A stretch of 64,000 bases of DNA from Panulirus ornatus. Its lineage: Eukaryota > Arthropoda > Malacostraca > Decapoda > Palinuridae. Positions 26,740 to 63,270 of the stretch are shown here, in pieces (position 1 is the first letter of the stretch; the number at the start of each line of letters is the position of its first letter). The notes under the pieces were generated by a model that saw nothing but the letters and a program-made list of their open reading frames with translations, was not told the origin of the DNA and did not search any database. The stretch covers positions 27,827,894 through 27,891,893 of the forward strand of contig NC_092231.1 in NCBI RefSeq assembly GCF_036320965.1, given 5' to 3'. Position numbers and translations under genes: made by a program.

Positions 26740-29720
26740 TCACCTCGCGACGGGATCTTGTAAGCGGACAGGTTCACCAAGCTTGAGAGGGGAAAGGGAG
26801 CGGGAGGTGCTGTTATAGTACTCCTCCGCCTTCTGTTGCAGTGTGAGCTGTCGTGCATCATACTCGTCCGCTGTGTCCTGCCACTCGGAAGCGAAGGAGC
26901 GGCAGTGTGTTGGCATGGATGTGCCGAGCGATCTGAGCGGGTGACCGGCCGTCTGGGCGGGGTTGTTGTGTGTCTCCATCAGTCCTTCGGTGGAAGTTTT
27001 CATCCTCCAGGCAGCCATTACTGATGGTCTTGATAATGAGGCGTTTCACCTGCTTCACACAGGCCTTACGGGTAATGTGGTCATGAGATGTGGCGAGTCA
27101 CGCCCCAACGCTTGAGGAAGGTCAGAAATTCTGACCTGGGGAACTAAGGTCCACTGTCCGCGTGGAGACGGACAGGTTCGCCTACATTAACGAAGAAGCT
27201 TGATGGTGGTGCGAGAGGTGGCGTCCCTTCCGTACTGACTCACGTGTGGTCAGCCAGATAGACGATCGGCGTACAGCAGACATTCCTTCCTGCGTGTGAG
27301 AACAGCTCAGCAGAGACGTCCTCGTAAGGCCGCGATGGGTGCGGGTCACACATCAACGGCTCCTTTACCAGGGATGGCTGGAGGGTCTGGCATGCGTCAC
27401 ATGCCTGCACGGTGTGCACGATGTCACTCGTGGTGCCAGGCCACCACAACGTCTGCCGGGCGCGGCGCTTTGAGGCCTCTATTCTTCAGTGAGTTGTGAA
27501 GGCGGGAAGAACAGGGAGGCCAAATGCGGCGGGGATGATGAGCCGGGCGCCGTGGAGAGCGAGACATTCATCAGTGGCCAGACTGTCTCGTATTTTCCAG
27601 AAATCTCGTAGTGATGCTGGTTCTTTCGGCAAGTCTGTGGGAAAACCTGTGATCATGGATGGCGTCGTGGAGCTGACGGTAGGCGTCGTCCTGGGCAGCT
27701 GGCCATCAAGCAGCTATGTAAGGTGACGTCCGCCCAAGCCTCGAAGTCTTCCGGGGTTGGGTCATCCACAGGTGCGCAGGAGATGCGCGTCGGGGATGGC
27801 AAGTTCTCTCCCCTTACGCTAAACTGTCGTGAGGGAAAACTGCGTCGTCTTCTTCAAACGCTGGAAACGTGAGGTCTCCACAGCGTCCAGTGTGTAGCCG
27901 TTCAAAATGGGCACCAGCGGCTTCTGGTCGATGAGGAGGCCGAAGTGTGGCAGACCCAGCAGATACCGGCGGCACTTTCTCATGGCCCACACAGCCACCA
28001 CAAGTTCTAACTCCACAATGGCATATCCTGTCTAAACGTCGCAAAGAAAACGAGAGCTACACTGCACCAGCCTCCTCTTGTCACCATGGCACGACACAAG
28101 AGCGTAAACCCACACCTTTCAGACACGAGGCTTCAGTCTGCAGAACTGTAGGAAGGGCGGGATCAAAGTGGGCGAGAACTGGAGACGAGTTCAAGGTTTA
28201 TTCCACTCTCTCGAATGATGCGTGGTGGTCGGGGGTCCACACAAAATCATTCATGGGGCTGAGAAGGGAGCAGAAAGTGTCTGGCGATGTTGCTATGCTG
28301 GGGTGAAGTTTGCAGGCCGGTTCGCGACATCCATGAATGACCCCGAGGTCCGTGATGATGGTGGGCGTGGGGGAATCTGAGATGGCACTCACCTTACCTG
28401 GTTCTGCAGTCATACCCTCAGCAGTGATGCCATACCCACAGCTCGGCAGACTGGCTGGCGTACACTAACCTGCTGACGTTCATGTTATGCCGTGTTTACG
28501 ACATCGCTGAAGGTCGACTGTGTAGGTCGGTTCCCAGGCGAACACGTCATCCAAGACAGTGCCTCAGTTGTTGACATCTTCAAGAGCGATTTACCACGTC
28601 TGAAAAATTCGTCCCCTATAGACACGAATCCCATGGGGGCCACGTAGAAATTTGTAACTTCCCCACGGAGTTATGAAGATGGTGAACGGCTGTGCCTCCT
28701 TTGCTAGCGGAAGCTGACAGTATCGCGTCCGTCGTGGTCAAATATTTGCATCCACGAGCGACCTCCATGACAGGTTGCGCGGCGTTGGGGCAGGGTGGTG
28801 GGCGGGTCGCAAAACTTGCTCGTTCAGTTTGGTGAGGTCCATGGTGGTGCAGACGCCTTCCCTCTGCTTCGGTGTCACCAGCCATCGGATAACACCATCT
28901 CCAATACCCCGACATCCAGCGGCTGGATGACCCCTTGCTTCTGCTGTCTAGCACCTGCTCGCCAGGCCAGGGGGATGGCCCAGGGAGTGTGGAGTGCAAA
29001 GGGCTGCTGCACCTCCGCCTGCTGGTGGATCGTCATGGGCAGGCCAGACACGGTCCACAGCTATGTTCCCTATGGACCTCTGGATCCACCAAGTCGTCCA
29101 TGAAATCTTCCAGAAGCTTCTGGCGATCCTCCACCAACTGCTCGGCGCTGGGGATATCAAGGTTGACATCGGTTGTGGAGCGACTATATCTGCTTCAGGT
29201 AGTTAGCAGGGATGATAGTGATGGCTCTGGCGTCATACCAGGAGAGCAGGACGTCGTCTGTGTCATGGGATACGTCGACGGTGGTGTCGTGTGACATATC
29301 TCCCAGGGTGAGAATTGCCTCGAATGATGCCACAGGTGACAGTCTACTGCTGTTCACCACGAGAACCTCCTCGTCCAGCGGAAAGGAGAAGTCAGACGCG
29401 AGGAGACCAAGCTGTGGCAGTTGTCGTGGTCCCGTGATGGCTGTCTTTTCTGCGCCGATGTCGGGCGTGCACAGCAGAGCCCCTCGTCGAGTCCCGTCAG
29501 GTAAACGTACTTTGGGTGCGCGACGGTTGGCTGGGCACCTGTGGACACCACTCAGCTTCAGGCGACGGCCAGCTTTACCTGTCAGCTTGTTGTTGTCACG
29601 GAGCTTCTGCGGATCCTGTAGTTTCTAGCGACACACTTTCCTGAAGTGTCCCGTGTGTGTGGCCACACTGGCAGCACTTCTATACCTCCGGCAGGACGCG
29701 ACGCTGCTTCACTCGTCCTT
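26740..29720 (-). pseudogene. Ty3/Gypsy pol relic (protease-RT-RNase H-integrase)
   Basis: Reading the minus strand, a possible Cys-rich knuckle (KCCQCGHTHG) is near 29650. An aspartic protease follows with LLCTPDIGAEKTAIT near 29450 (DIGA in place of DTGA). RT follows (about 29100-28420), with VTPKQREGV, MDLTKLNEQVLRPAHHP and a VLDDVF active-site relic (28544-28556). RNase H follows (27819-28016, ELELVVAVWAMRKCRRYLLGL and LVPILNGYTLDAVE). Integrase comes last (27240-27449, WWPGTTSDI and ACDACQ), with its C-terminal part at 26740-27018. Domain order PR-RT-RH-IN is diagnostic for Ty3/Gypsy. Frames break repeatedly, so it cannot be active. The sequence is GC-richer than its flanks. Confidence 0.9.
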
Positions 29721-32269: not shown

Positions 32270-32795
32270 TCCTCCATCCGCACACAACACCTTACCACCC
32301 CCACACTGCACCCCACCATCCCCATACAACACCCCATCATCCTCACACAACAAACCACCATCCCCACACAACACCCCATCATCCCCACATAACACCCCAC
32401 GAACCCCTAATCGTACCCCAACATCCCCACACAGCAATCCACCAGCCCCAAATCGCACCCCAACATCCCCACACAGCACCCCACCATCTCCACACAGCAA
32501 TCTATTAGCCCCAAATCGCACCCCAACACCCCCACACAGCACCCCACCATCCCCACACAACACCCCACCAGCCCTAAACAGCACCCCAACATCCCCATGC
32601 AACACCCCATCATCCCCACGCAGCACCCAACCAATTCCACACAGCAACCCACCATCCCCACACAGCACCCCATCGTCCCCACATGACACCCCACCATTCA
32701 CAAAGAGCACCCCACCTACCCCAAACAGCACCCCTTGATCCCCACACAACACTCCCCCATCCCCTTCCAGCAACCCACCATCCCCACACCTAACA
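32270..32795. repeat. C-rich minisatellite, period about 15-21 bp
   Basis: Repeats of CACCCCACCATCCCCACACAA vary in length. The 194-aa and 96-aa minus-strand frames (GVLCGDGG repeats) are products of this array, not genes. Confidence 0.9.
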
Positions 32796-48664: not shown

Positions 48665-49800
48665 GGTAATGCTGTCCTGGATGAGGACTGTCCTGTGTGT
48701 TGCTGGCCTGCGTTACGGAGTGTCCTGAGTGACGCTGGCCTGTGGGACGTCTTGTTATGAGTGACGCTGGCCTGTGGGACGTGTTGTTATGAGTGACGCT
48801 GGCCTGTGGGACGTGTTGTTATGAGTGACGCTGGTCTGTGGGACGTGTTGTTATGAGTGACGCTGGCCTGTGGGACGTGTTATGAGTGACGCTGGCCTGT
48901 GGGATGTGTTGAGTGACGCTAGCCTGTGGGACGTGTTGTTATGAGTGACGCTAGCCTGTGGGACGTGTTGTTATGAGTGACGCTAGCCTGTGGGACGTGT
49001 TATGAGTGACGCTGGCCTGTGGGACGTGTTGAGTGACGCTGGCCTGTGGGACGTGTTGTTATGAGTGACGCTAGCCTGTGGGACGTGTTATGAGTGACGC
49101 TAGCCTGTGGGACGTGTTGAGTGACGCTGGTCTGTGGGACGTGTTGTTATGAGTGACGCTGGCCTGTGGGACGTGTTGTTGTGAGTGACGCTGGCCTGTG
49201 GGACGTGTTGTTGTGAGTGACGCTAGCCTGTGGGACGTGTTGTTATGAGTGACGCTGGTCTGTGGGACGTATTGTTATGAGTGACGCTAGCCTGTGGGAC
49301 GTGTTATGAGTGACGCTGGCCTGTGGGACGTGTTGAGTGACGCTAGCCTGTGGGACGTGTTGTTATGAGTGACGCTAGCCTGTGGGACGTGTTGAGTGAC
49401 GCTAGCCTGTGGGACGTGTTATGAGTGACGCTAGCCTGTGGGACGTGTTGTTATGAGTGACGCTGGCCTGTGGGACGTGTTGAGTGACGCTAGCCTGTGG
49501 GACGTGTTGTTGTGAGTGACGCTAGCCTGTGGGACGTGTTGTTATGAGTGACGCTGGTCTGTGGGACGTGTTGTTATGAGTGACGCTGGCCTGTGGGACG
49601 TGTTGAGTGACGCTGGTCTGTGGGACGTGTTATGAGTGACGCTAGCCTGTGGGACGTGTTGAGTGACGCTGGCCTGTGGGACGTTTTGAGTGACGCTGGC
49701 CTGTGGGACGTGTTGAGTGACGCTAGCCTGTGGGACGTGTTGAGTGACGCTAGCCTGTGGGACGTGTTGAGTGACGCTGCCCTGGGCGACGAATGGTTGT
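48665..49800. repeat. Minisatellite with 27-, 29- and 32-bp unit types
   Basis: The core GAGTGACGCTGGCCTGTGGG plus ACGTGTT repeats more than 35 times. Units end after GTT (27 bp), with AT added (29 bp), or with GTTAT or GTTGT added (32 bp). A GGC/AGC/GGT position also alternates. The short plus- and minus-strand frames (LWDVLSDAG, SLNTSHRLA) are array products. Confidence 0.95.
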
Positions 49801-50274
49801 GAGTGACGTCGTCCCGGGTGACGGAATTTCCTGAGGGAAGAATTGTCATGACTGACGGATTGTCGTGAGTGACGCTGGCAGGGATTAAGGACTGTCCAGA
49901 GTGACGTTTGAGTGACGGAGTGCCTTTACGCTAACTTAGTTGACGCATATTCTGAGTGACACTTGTTCAGGTAACGAATTGTCCTGAGTGACACATGGTG
50001 GGGTGTTGTGAGTGTCGCTGGCCTCGATGAAGATTTGTCCCGAGTGACGTCACCTGTGTGACGCTTTGTCCTGAGTGAGGCTGGCATGGGTGAAGTATTA
50101 TTGTCCTTAGTGACGCTGCCTTGAGTGACGATGGCTTGCGTGAAGGGATTTTCTGAGTGACGATGGCCTGTGTGATGAACTGCCCTGAGTGACACTGGAT
50201 CGAGTGATGGATTGTCCTGAGTGACACCGGATCATGTGATGAAATGTCCTGAATTACGCTAGACTCTTCTGAGT

Positions 50275-50825
50275 GACGCTGGCCTAGTATATGGACTGTC
50301 CTGAGTGACACTAGCCTGTGTGATGGACTGTCCTGAGTGACACTAGCCTGTGTGGTGGATTGTCCTGAGTGACACTAGCCTGTGTGATGGACTGTCCTGA
50401 GTGACACTAGCCTGTGTGATGGACTGTCCTGAGTAACACTAGCCTGTGTGGTGGATTGTCCTGAGTGACACTAGCCTGTGTGATGGACTGTCCTGAGTGA
50501 CACTAGCCTGTGTGATGGACTGTCCTGAGTGACACTAGCCTGTGTGGTGGATTGTCCTGAGTGACACTAGCCTGTGTGATGGACTGTCCTGAGTGACACT
50601 AGCCTGTGTGGTGGATTGTCCTGAGTGACACTAGCCTGTGTGATGGACTGTCCTGAGTGACACTAGCCTGTGTGGTGGATTGTCCTGAGTGACACTAGCC
50701 TGTGTGAGGGACTGTCCTGAGTGACACTAGCCTATGTGAGGGACTGTCCTGAGTAACACTAGCCTGTGTGATGGACTGTCCTGAGTGACACTAGCCTGTG
50801 TGAGGGATTGTCCTGAGTAACAGTG
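50275..50825. repeat. 32-bp minisatellite, about 17 copies
   Basis: The unit GTGACACTAGCCTGTGTG followed by ATGGACTGTCCTGA alternates with a GTGGATTGTCCTGA type. It shares the GAGTGAC...CTNGCCTGTG skeleton and the 32-bp period with the array at 48.67-49.80 kb. The two therefore look like diverged parts of one locus joined by degenerate units (49.80-50.27 kb). Confidence 0.95.
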
Positions 50826-51032
50826 GCTTGAGTGAAGAATTGTCCTGAGTGACGGTGGCTTGAGTGACGGATTGCCCATAAGAGGGCGGTGTGGGTGATA
50901 AGACTGTCCTGAGGGACAATTTGAGTCACGGTCCACTTCTCCAGGAAGATGACACACTAGATCACCACCACCATAACATGGCCAGTCAGAAACATGCTTC
51001 TATGTACCATACTTTAACATTATGGAGATTCC

Positions 51033-52424: not shown

Positions 52425-53222
52425 AATGTACATAATTCATACTTGCTCTCTTCATTCATTCCCGTCGCCACCCTGACACACATGAAATGAAAAACTCCAT
52501 GACCCACATGTGCGCGAGGTAGCGCTAGGAAAAGACAACAAAGGCCCCATTCGTTCACACTCAGTCTCTAGCTGTCATGTATAATGCACCGAAACCACAG
52601 CTCCCTTTCCACGTCCAGGCCCCACAAAACTTTCCATAGTTTACTCCAGACGCTTCACGTGCCCAGGTTCAATCCATCGACAGCAAGTCGACCCCGGTAT
52701 ACCACATCATTCCAATTAAATCTATTCCTTGCACACCTTTCACCCTCCTGCATGTTCAGGCCCAAATCGCTCAAAATCTTTTTCACTCCATCTTTCCACC
52801 TCCAATTCGGTCTCCCACTTCTCGTTCCCTCCACCTTAGACATATATATCCTCTTTGTCAATCTTTCCTCACTCATTCTCTCCATGTGACCAAACCATTT
52901 CAAAACACCCTCCTCTGCTCTCTTAACCACACTCTTTTTATTTCCACACATCTCTCTTACCCTTTCATTACTTACTCGATCAAACCACCTCACACCACAT
53001 ATTGTCCTCAAACATCTCATTTCCAACACATCCACCCTCCTCCCCACAACCCTACCTATAGCCGATGCCTTGCAACCATATAACAGAGTTGGAACTACTA
53101 TTCCTTCATACATAACGAGATAACGTTCTCTCTACACATTCTTCATCGCTCCCAGAACCTTCGCCCCCTCCTCCAACCTAAGACAATTCCATTTCCATGG
53201 TTCCATTCGCTGCTAAGTCCAC
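52205..53222 (-). mobile_element. LINE family A copy, long 3' UTR, 5'-truncated
   Basis: The tail hairpin lies at about 52223-52255. A (TA)n expansion inside the UTR spans 52351-52420, and the upstream motif is near 52507-52530. A 152-aa frame (52655-53113) holds the C-terminal domain (VVGRRVDVLEMRCLRTICG, WFGHMERMSEERLTKRIYM, GRPNWRWKDGVKKILSD). The copy ends near 53222 beside the foldback element. Confidence 0.9.
52351..52420. repeat. (TA)n inside a LINE 3' UTR
   Basis: About 35 TA units arose in the TATACATA-rich part of the UTR, not at the tail. The UTR itself is therefore a second source of TA microsatellites. Confidence 0.97.
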
Positions 53223-56201: not shown

Positions 56202-56273
56202 AGGACCAATTGGTAGATAAAACTCTGCGTCACGATGCACTAACAAGCTCTCGTGTGCAGCGTCATTACTTAC

Positions 56274-56348
56274 AATTCCATTACCAAATAGACTTTGTGT
56301 TTATCTTCAAACGTTTCTAAGAGCTGAACTATGTTGGGATGCGTTAGC
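56274..56348 (-). CDS. Protein-kinase exon B (subdomains IV-V), alternative exon candidate
   Basis: The minus strand reads a pyrimidine-rich acceptor ending TTCTTCTGTATTCCAG, a 75-nt open segment, then the donor GTAAGT. The coding starts with the last base of a split codon (AG|G would give Arg) and reads LTHPNIVQLLETFEDKHK then VYLVMEL, ending in a split Leu codon (TT|). HPNI is the conserved kinase subdomain IV motif. VYLVMEL is strand beta5 plus the start of the hinge, with Met at the gatekeeper position. Such wording is typical of CAMK-group Ser/Thr kinases; the exact family is not resolvable from 25 residues. Both introns are phase 2. Exon A, 606 nt upstream, has the same length and phases. 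Confidence 0.78.
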
Positions 56349-56954
56349 CTGGAATACAGAAGAATAAACCAAGGTGAGAACAAGACGAATGAACAGTTTG
56401 GGCTGTAATTTCTGATTCAGTGAGATCGGTTAGGACAGTAACATGGAAGGGTCAGCGTCTTAAAAAACTACTTTAGTGACAAGTAAGGACAACAAATGCC
56501 TCATATCAAGGCGTCCCCTCCCTCTGACTGGGATATTCATTGATCCGTTCCATCCTACTGTCCATGTAGCTCCCGCTAAAAAACCTTGAAACAAAACAAA
56601 TAACCACAAGACCCAGGAATCCAGAACGCGATGCGGTGGTGCCACATGTTGCAGCCTCTGTAGGGGTTTAGAGAGTGTGTCCGGGTGTTAGAGTGGCGGA
56701 GACGTGGCAAAAGTCACGCGAAACCTTGAATCACTTTCAAGAGAACATAATAGTTACATCTGTTAATGTCTGATAACAAAAAAGGTAATTTATCTCATGA
56801 TAAATGATCGATGGGAGTTTTTTTTTTTATGAATTCTCAAACACACTTCCTGTGAAGATGTGTCTCCAAACAAATGCTATCCGATCGGTGATTCGAGGCG
56901 ACGTTAGATTGCCACATCCCGTTTTCTTTTGGTGTGTGAGTGGGGGGTACTTAC

Positions 56955-57029
56955 AACTCGATGACGAGGTAAACGCGTTCAATGTCCTCGTAAGTATCCA
57001 GCAGCTGCACTATGTTGGGATGCCGCAGT
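56955..57029 (-). CDS. Protein-kinase exon A (subdomains IV-V), alternative exon candidate
   Basis: The minus strand reads acceptor GTGTGGACTTTTACAG, a 75-nt open segment and donor GTAAGT. The product is LRHPNIVQLLDTYEDIER then VYLVIEL, with split codons at both ends exactly as in exon B (phase 2 in, phase 2 out). By eye 17 of 24 full codons give the same residue, while most shared codons differ at synonymous sites. This indicates an old duplication kept under protein-level selection. The gatekeeper residue is Ile here and Met in exon B. Using both exons in one mRNA would duplicate strands beta4-beta5, so mutually exclusive use is likely. The rest of the kinase was not found in the window. 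Confidence 0.8.
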
Positions 57030-57739
57030 CTGTAAAAGTCCACACTTGTTATGGTAATATTAGACTTCCACTTACATTCCCCACTCTTTATGGTAACATT
57101 TTATGACAACACAAACTCCACTGAAAACCTACACACACACAAAAAAACTGACTATGGCAAGAGAAGCGTCCGAGCATACCTTAAATTCTCAAGTTTATTT
57201 GGGGAAAAAAATCTAAAATAAAATTTTATGTCCGGACCCAAAATTATTTTTTTTTAAATATTTATAAACTAAGGTAAACTGTTAAAAGTTTACATGAAAA
57301 AAAAATGTCTAAGCTACGGTCATTATGAGAAAGTTGACGAAAGTCTTCAGGTTTTCAGTGAAACAATAATCTTTTATAACATGCAAAAATATCAAAGGGT
57401 GATCAAAAAATAAAAATATTTTTTTAAAGGCAAGACATAGTTATAGAACAAGCAAAACTCACTGAAGTTATATAGAAACATGATTCTATAACCTGCAAAA
57501 ATATTGACAAGTTAGTAACAAGACATTACTCCATTTTCTAAAGTCCGCTGCATACAAAACTATGTTGCTTGATCCAAGTTTCTCCCCGTGACTACAGCCT
57601 CTATAACCTCAACTTAGGATATGTCAGCAGACGTAATCGACTTACAACACCTAACTTCATCCCATTTCTCCTTATAGCTTCAACCATGACTGGCTGCACG
57701 ACTCAGCACAAGTAACAAGTTTAGTAACACCACAGCAGC

Positions 57740-58385: not shown

Positions 58386-58494
58386 AAAATTATTTGAACT
58401 CAAGACAACATTCCTAAACTCAACCGACAGCTGGTTGGGTTGTGTTTACCCAGGAAAGAGTGAAGAACATAAGAGTTTGGATAAAAACACATAG

Positions 58495-59190
58495 AGTACA
58501 TATGGCTTATGTGACCACAGAGTACATATGGTTTATGTGACCACAGAGTACATATGGTTTATGTGACCACAGAGAACATATGGCTTATGTGACCACAGAG
58601 TACATATGGTTTATGTGACCACAGAGTACATATGGTTTATGTGACCACAGAGTACATATGGTCTATGTGACCACAGAGTACATATGGCTTATGTGACCAC
58701 AGAGTACATATGGCTTATGTGACCACAGAGTACATATGGTTTATGTGACCACAAAGTACATATGGTCTATGTGACCACAGAGTACATATGGCTTATGTGA
58801 CCACAGAGTACATATGGTTTATGTGACCACAGAGTACATATGGTTTATGTGACCACAGAGTACATATGATTTATGTGACCACAGAGTACATGTGGTTCAT
58901 GCGACCACACAGTACATATGGTTGATGTGACCGCAGAGTACATATGGTTTATGTGACCAAAGAGTACATATGGTTTATGTGACCACAGAGTACATATGGT
59001 TTATGTGACCACAGAGTACATATGGTTTATGTGACCAGAGTACATATGGTTTATGTGATCACAGAGTATATATGGTTTATGTGACCACAGAGAACATATG
59101 GTTTATGTGACCACAGAGTACATATGGTTTATGTGACCACAGAGTACATATGGTTTATGTGACCACAGAGTACATATGGTTTATGTGAAG
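58495..59190. repeat. 26-bp minisatellite, about 27 copies
   Basis: The unit ACAGAGTACATATGGTTTAT plus GTGACC is very regular, with occasional CTTAT/TCTAT variants and one short unit near 59036. Confidence 0.97.
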
Positions 59191-62235: not shown

Positions 62236-62722
62236 ACCTCAGGTGAAGCCCAGGATCTGTTGGTGAGACCCAGCATCTGTTGGTGAAGCCCAGCATCCGT
62301 TGGTGAAGCCCAGCATCCGTTGGTGAAGCCCAGCATCCGTTGGTGAAGCCCAGCATCTGTTGGTGAGACCCAGTATCTGTTGGTGAGGCTCAACATCTGT
62401 TGGTGAGGTCCAGCATCAGTTGGTGAGACCCAGCATCTGTTGGTGAAGCCCAACCATCTGTTGATGAGACCTAGCATCTATTGGTGAAGCCTAGCATCTG
62501 TTGGTGAAGCCAACCATCTGTTGGAGAGACCCAGCATCTGTTGGTGAGACCTAGCGTCTGTTGGTGAGACCTAGCATCTATTAGTGAAGCCAACCATCCG
62601 TTGGTGAGACCCAGCATCTGTTGGTGAGACCTAGCGTCTGTTGGTGAAGCCAACCATCCGTTGGTGAGACCTAGCATCTGCTGGTGAAGCCTACCATCTG
62701 TTGGTGAAGCCTACCATCTGTT
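62236..62722. repeat. 21-bp minisatellite, about 23 copies
   Basis: The unit GTTGGTGAAGCCCAGCATCTG repeats with GAGACC and CCAACC variants. It reads as heptapeptide repeats (TNGCWAS-like) on the minus strand only because 21 is a multiple of three. Confidence 0.96.
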
Positions 62723-62990
62723 GGGCATTGCACCTGGTCAGCACCGGTGTCTGGGTAACGCACCCGCGCACCTGATCAGCCTCTCTCAGCTGGGCAAGGT
62801 GAGAGGAATCCAGTGTTTTCCCACACTCGCTCCAGCAAGACAGGTTCTTCACCATGGAAGTAGGAACGAGTCATTGTTCTGGATTCACCTGAGGATCAAC
62901 CCGTGGGGATGATGGCGCCACACAGGATGGGATATTGTAATCAGACAGAAATCTGTCTTCACGACCACGATCATTAACATATCCGTCGGT

Positions 62991-63270
62991 GGCCCACTTG
63001 GTCAAGCGGTTCACAATCCTTCTTTCCAGTGGCCCACTTGGTCAGGCGGTTCACAATCCTTCTTTCCAGTGGCCCACTTGGTCAGGCGGTTCACAATCCT
63101 TCTTTCCAGTGGCCCACTTGGTCAAGCGGTTCACAATCCTTCTTTCCAGTGGCCCACTTGGTCAAGCGGTTCACAATCCTTCTTTCCAGTGGCCCACTTG
63201 GTCAAGCGGTTCACAATCCTTCTTTCCAGTGGCCCACTTGGTCAGGCGGTCCACAATCCTTCTTTCCAGT
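62991..63270. repeat. 40-bp minisatellite, seven near-identical copies
   Basis: GGCCCACTTGGTCAAGCGGT plus TCACAATCCTTCTTTCCAGT repeats exactly seven times (280 bp). Only an A/G switch at one site and a T-to-C change in the last unit are seen. Frames over it are array products. Confidence 0.97.

Follow-up and report, generated by a model that had tools for sequence, protein, structure and literature searches.

The window, by which we mean the whole 64-kb stretch of DNA analysed (C8:27827894-27891893, in a genome of 2.65 Gb), carries two short exons on its minus strand that encode related versions of the same segment of a protein kinase. Exon A (56955..57029) is 75 nt long and encodes LRHPNIVQLLDTYEDIERVYLVIE(L); exon B (56274..56348), also of 75 nt, encodes LTHPNIVQLLETFEDKHKVYLVME(L). 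Each is in phase 2 at both ends, the boundary codons being Arg (AG+A or AG+G) and Leu (TT+A), and each has an AG immediately before it and a GTAAGT immediately after it, the 5' splice sites lying at 56949..56954 for exon A and at 56268..56273 for exon B. The intron between them (56349..56954, minus strand) is of the GT-AG type and lacks a U12 donor. On recalculation, the coordinates, lengths, splice sites and phases put forward in the first-pass annotation of this locus were all reproduced, with the intron it had placed at about 600 nt now set at exactly 606 nt.

The two exons are identical at 17 of 24 residues and at 47 of 75 nucleotides, but differ at 18 of their 24 third codon positions; with the Nei-Gojobori method (24 codons) dN is 0.24, while pS, at 0.97 over 16 synonymous sites, is saturated. 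The combination argues that selection on the protein has maintained both exons since they arose by an old duplication, and so bears out what had been read from the letters alone. That both encode homologous segments of a kinase N-lobe is likewise upheld: each 24-residue peptide matches positions 55-78 of the Pfam Pkinase profile (E = 0.00013 for exon B and 0.0036 for exon A; both below Pfam's own cut-off, as is to be expected at 24 residues), and a PDB search with the exon B peptide alone returns calcium-dependent and other kinases.

Judged by its full-length relatives, the gene carrying exons A and B is calcium/calmodulin-dependent protein kinase I (CaMKI), which gives a family to the kinase spoken of in the first-pass annotation. 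The database protein P0002, discussed below, has a Pkinase domain scoring 267.7 bits (Pfam); its best solved relative is 1a06, a calcium/calmodulin-dependent protein kinase (E = 4.1e-148), followed by CaMK type 1 and 1D, and the named decapod matches of the full-length query are CaMK type 1. The alignment to 1a06 extends through the QAYHATAVIRQMR segment, which we take to be the C-terminal autoinhibitory/calmodulin-binding region. P0002 itself falls among decapod proteins, which points to a decapod or a close relative as the source of the genome. A set of other families suggested by the 24-residue peptides (DCLK, PHKG, PSKH1, HUNK, MARK and STK33) was dropped, since the nearest full-length relatives are of CaMKI.

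Using fetched genomic stretches, we placed eight exons and seven introns of this gene on the minus strand. Working from upstream downwards, E2 (C8:27909474-27909340) is followed by an intron of 24,417 nt that leads to exon A; exon B is separated from E4 (C8:27827016-27826878) by an intron of 57,150 nt, and the introns that follow are of 42,928 nt (E4 to E5), 47,337 nt (E5 to E6), 1,738 nt (E6 to E7) and 4,650 nt (E7 to E8). E2 and E4, the nearest placed neighbours of the pair, are separated by 24.4 kb from A (upstream) and by 57.2 kb from B (downstream); both thus fall outside the window, and within its 64 kb no exon of the CaMKI gene was found besides A and B. At its outer ends, a genome search matched residues 2-79 of P0002 (99% identical) to C8:28683985-28683758 and residues 348-398 to C8:27593917-27593765, both on the minus strand, the edges given being those of the matches. 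The coding exons accordingly cover some 1.09 Mb (C8:28683985-27593765), which is very large for a protein of 398 residues; the first intron alone takes up roughly 774 kb.

The same gene holds a second alternative, outside the window: two C-terminal exons, reading QLMHAIVMVHKMQ... or QAYHATAVIRQM..., located at C8:27696408-27696250 (L020) and C8:27593917-27593765. The segment they exchange is presumably calmodulin-binding. In the Scylla proteins of the database, each C-terminal type is found both with A and with B (four combinations: P0010, P0011, P0122 and P0124), and both C-terminal types are also found outside crustaceans (e.g. P0044 and P0113 versus P0119 and P0120). As for the intronic sequence of the window, it contains large minisatellite arrays at 58493-59188, 48726-49808, 50262-50853, 32274-32789, 62242-62724 and 62989-63270, among them a 26-mer in 26.8 copies, lying upstream of exon A at a distance of about 1.5 kb, and arrays of 32-mer units between 48.7 and 50.9 kb. 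An open frame of 158 residues without a Pfam match (52655-53131, minus strand) appears to resemble the terminal part of a reverse transcriptase from a non-LTR retrotransposon, and a frame interrupted by stops (27195-27542, minus strand) is presumably akin to the zinc-binding stretch of an LTR-retrotransposon integrase.

Joining E2, A, E4, E5, E6, E7 and E8 at GT-AG borders yields residues 79-354 of P0002 with 276 of 276 positions identical and exon B absent; agreement of this order with an independent database protein puts the exon structure far beyond chance. The six contigs behind P0002 (‘lgn’) do not exceed 3,755 nt, too short to hold the introns of the gene, and we infer from this length that they are transcript-derived. 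A transcript of this species containing B was not seen in the protein database, whose clustering at 90% identity might conceal a B isoform. Exon B does occur alone in proteins of Portunus, Scylla, Cherax, Penaeus vannamei, P. japonicus, Macrobrachium and Hyalella, and in four decapods an A-only protein is paired with a B-only protein that, the exon apart, matches it over 250 residues with 0 mismatches: Portunus (P0004/P0121), Scylla (P0011/P0124 and P0010/P0122, one pair for each of two C-terminal versions), Cherax (P0018/P0125) and P. vannamei (P0129/P0126). In every one of these four the two members list the same longest contig. The search of related species called for in the first-pass annotation has thus turned up both single-exon forms in four further decapods. 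The named A and B isoforms have the look of gene predictions deposited in databases.

These pairs also bear on whether A and B might derive from a pair of distinct kinase genes that are interleaved, a reading for which nothing speaks beyond the duplication itself. Against it, the paired products of other decapods do not differ at any of the 250 residues compared outside the exon, and the genome search located a single CaMKI locus: matches off C8 are at most 54% identical (105 matches listed; 104 of 990 candidates scored), leaving the C8 gene as the only CaMKI locus among the matches listed. We consider such interleaving to be the most improbable of the explanations weighed here.

One protein joins the two exons. 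P0001, recorded by NCBI as isoform X2 of Macrobrachium rosenbergii CaMK1, carries A and then B in tandem, and again shows 0 mismatches over 250 residues outside the exon when set against its B-containing counterpart P0127; it may reflect a genuine transcript that includes both exons, or else an error of gene prediction. Were A and B independently regulated cassette exons, used singly, together or not at all, double inclusion of this kind would be a normal product, and in the present gene all four A/B combinations, including double inclusion and double skipping, do remain in frame without a stop. Against this, P0001 is the only one to hold both exons among 30 rows that we picked as malacostracan, by name or by place in a tree, from 307 retrieved proteins (among the matches listed), and a junction skipping both is present in 0 of the 307, the searches having been scored on the exon region, which disfavours skipped forms. 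An AlphaFold2 (AF2) model of P0001 offers a further hint that the double-inclusion product would be faulty: the A copy forms strands β4 and β5, whereas the B copy has a pLDDT of 25-37, which is weak evidence in a model that is poor overall (mean pLDDT 60) and for an insert which, being absent from other rows, is expected to score low. Independent cassette use is, in our estimation, unlikely.

Mutually exclusive exons are described in PMC5740500 as similar in sequence and length, conserved in frame, used singly and never jointly. Exons A and B agree in length (75/75 nt), in phase (2/2) and in sequence (17/24 residues), and they are a well-supported candidate for tandem exons that one crustacean CaMKI gene uses as alternatives, very probably in a mutually exclusive way, a reading to which we assign a probability of roughly 0.8. 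The first-pass proposal of candidate mutually exclusive splicing gains from the A-only P0002 and from the A-only/B-only pairs of four decapods; a strict either/or rule is less secure, P0001, which joins both exons, being the main evidence against it.

Turning to the protein, the region of the exon aligns without gaps between the crustacean protein and solved CaMKI chains, and the first 17 PDB matches of an AF2 model of P0002 are CaMKI-type chains. In this model (mean pLDDT 60.5, with blocks of 79-90 over exon A) residues 124-148, corresponding to exon A, run over the loop preceding β4, β4 itself (132-137) and β5 (141-147), so that the exon probably spans the stretch from the αC/β4 loop to the start of the hinge. 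The predicted ‘gatekeeper’ is Ile in exon A and Met in exon B. We take the Met of YLVMELVKGG to be Met465 of DCLK1, an assignment that fits the position of the hinge residue Gly471; Met465 and Gly471 are given as the gatekeeper and hinge residue of DCLK1 in PMC8395186. The turn between β4 and β5 changes along with the gatekeeper, reading K-H-K in B, I-E-R in this species' A and x-E-H in the other A-type rows; across rows, the Met type has K-x-K and the Ile type x-E-H or x-E-R.

The coupling of turn to gatekeeper is close. When the 204 CaMKI-type rows in which the 25-residue segment is clean were sorted by residue 17 of the exon, Glu at this position was accompanied by Ile in 18 of 18 and any other residue by Met in 185 of 186 (the exception being P0237), counts that are not independent, given the kinship of the sequences. 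With the gatekeeper masked, the nearest different sequence has the same gatekeeper in all 30 malacostracan rows, and ranking by identity to this species' A or B gives 18 A-like rows with Ile and 10 B-like rows with Met. The remaining two, the unnamed P0231 and P0235, have Ile yet are B-like by this masked identity, so that the separation of the types is not clean in every lineage.

What the exchange would do to the enzyme may be gauged from the receptor tyrosine kinases: in FGF receptors, replacing a Thr/Val gatekeeper by Met/Ile raises kinase activity, and some inhibitors bind worse, according to PMC4471147. This printed precedent concerns a change from Thr/Val to Met/Ile in tyrosine kinases, whereas here Met is set against Ile in CaMKI; by analogy, the Ile/Met exchange may alter CaMKI activity. 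Exon choice would swap the gatekeeper and the β4/β5 turn and leave the rest of the enzyme unchanged, and the A and B kinases are predicted to differ in basal activity or in the behaviour of the ATP site rather than in fold.

The two types are unevenly spread. Of the malacostracan rows, 30 in all, 20 combine Ile with an A-type turn; counted here are P0001, in which A is the first of the two copies, and the Chionoecetes row P0233, in which an unrelated insert follows A. Met with a B-type turn accounts for the other 10. At the peptide level, exon B is identical (24/24) to the exon of B-only proteins from Portunus, Scylla, P. vannamei, P. japonicus and Macrobrachium, and also to that of 53 retrieved rows outside the 30, many of them Hymenoptera. 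The CaMKI proteins of insects, chelicerates and Daphnia belong to the same family, all of them Met-type among the matches listed and with exon B as the same type of sequence, 24/24 in many insects; this identity with many insect rows makes B the likely ancestral type.

Ile-type rows lie in the malacostracan group among the matches listed, P0237 again excepted. In a tree of 46 CaMKI rows built without the exon (by a quick method, and blurred by the C-terminal alternative), the same rows fall into one group of 26 (SH-aLRT 94, drawn open). P0237, an unnamed protein (jgi), groups instead with a Liolophura protein; it has Ile at the gatekeeper (SHVYLVIEL) without the Glu of the turn, perhaps through an independent change. 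Among the non-decapods, the isopod row P0053 (Armadillidium) is of the A type and the amphipod row P0143 (Hyalella) of the B type, while neither an isopod B nor an amphipod A was seen among the matches listed in a search that was not exhaustive. The NCBI name of P0053 is labelled UNVERIFIED_CONTAM, and the row is weak evidence for an origin of A before the isopod/decapod split.

Variation within the types might be taken to mean that one of the duplicated exons has fallen out of use or is decaying, as Ile-type exons are the more variable (13 distinct sequences in 20 rows, compared with 4 in 10 for the Met type); that B is unseen in a transcript of this species would fit with the same idea. Yet A is present in the transcript-derived P0002 of this very gene, B is identical throughout to the B of other decapods and of many insects, splice sites are intact in both exons, and dN is low against saturated synonymous sites; we therefore think decay very unlikely for either copy.

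How would the choice between A and B be made, if the exons are indeed alternatives? The pyrimidine tract in the 3' splice site region of exon A (57030..57069, minus strand) has 10 pyrimidines in 20, the weakest of nine acceptors examined, the eight others having 13-16 in 20; that of exon B (56349..56388, minus strand) has 15 in 20. None of the hard devices by which joint inclusion could be prevented appears to operate here. Steric block was rejected, the 606-nt intron being not too short for splicing of A to B, as was U12 incompatibility, the sites not being of this type; enforcement through the reading frame and nonsense-mediated decay was rejected too, because every A/B combination stays open, so that double inclusion or double skipping would not be removed by this route.

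Nor did complementary docking/selector pairing clearly exceed shuffled controls within 400-500 nt of the exons, in the one sequence analysed. In the intron at 56349-56954, where the first-pass annotation had proposed looking for docking sequences, no such pairing rose clearly above shuffles: the A-B intron folds slightly better than its shuffles (z = -1.89), the energies of docking duplexes were reached by 84, 68 and 99 of 100 shuffles, and contiguous stems by 58, 60 and 6 of 60 rough block shuffles (dinucleotides kept in one phase only). Inverted repeats near the exons are A/T-rich or of 12-16 nt, and a motif scan around A and B gave nothing distinctive. With the acceptor of A the weakest, that of B at 15/20 and the hard devices absent or unproven, a regulated choice with B as default is favoured: B, with its strong acceptor, would be the default exon, and A would need a tissue- or stage-specific factor. 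Exclusivity would then be regulated and not hard-wired, because double inclusion stays in frame.

Tandem alternative exons are a known kind of arrangement in kinases. The closest in form is FYN (FynB/FynT), in which tandem duplicated, mutually exclusive exons with tissue-specific use encode part of the kinase N-lobe; they cover the linker between SH2 and kinase domains together with the N-terminal region of the kinase that holds the ATP site, and the word ‘gatekeeper’ is absent from the source (PMC9741552). FYN is a tyrosine kinase of the Src family, unlike CaMKI, and its exon pair is presumably of independent origin. Nearer in family is CAMK2D, a related CaM kinase with a tandem duplicated kinase-domain exon and a cluster of residues by the ATP site (PMC9741552; mentioned also in PMC5740500); this is human CaMKII and not CaMKI, and since the swapped residues are unspecified in the accessible text of PMC9741552, a parallel is possible. 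CAMKI itself is listed among the differentially spliced genes of one group of Drosophila neurons, with the exon unspecified (PMC6025963). Mutually exclusive exons described for Macrobrachium g42168 were set aside, as they lie in an actin gene and not in CaMKI (PMC9767951).

Among the open-licence PubMed Central titles and abstract openings listed, none names the A/B pair or describes a splice swap of the gatekeeper. The remark in the first-pass annotation that the arrangement might be new is sustained to this extent, but must be tempered, as NCBI already lists paired A/B isoforms, under X-numbered or hypothetical protein names.

As to what the pair may mean, we regard as evenly balanced the proposition that malacostracans swap the gatekeeper of CaMKI by splicing, between an ancestral Met and a derived Ile with a charge-changed turn, in which case a single gene would supply two forms of the kinase that differ in catalytic set-point and in their response to inhibitors. 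The switch would then have been retained in decapods at least, over a range that takes in penaeid shrimps and crabs. Drug-resistance mutations are the best-known setting for gatekeeper residues; in farmed and fished crustaceans, a conserved animal gene seems to change its gatekeeper naturally, by exon choice, and it is the predicted gatekeeper as target that makes the exon pair worth testing. Work on shrimp that measures CaMKI as one transcript (e.g. PMC10525212) may, this suggests, mix two enzymes. If confirmed, A and B would provide a natural isoform pair, identical outside 25 residues, that could be used to probe the roles of the gatekeeper and of the αC/β4/β5 region in a calcium-dependent kinase, in living tissue.
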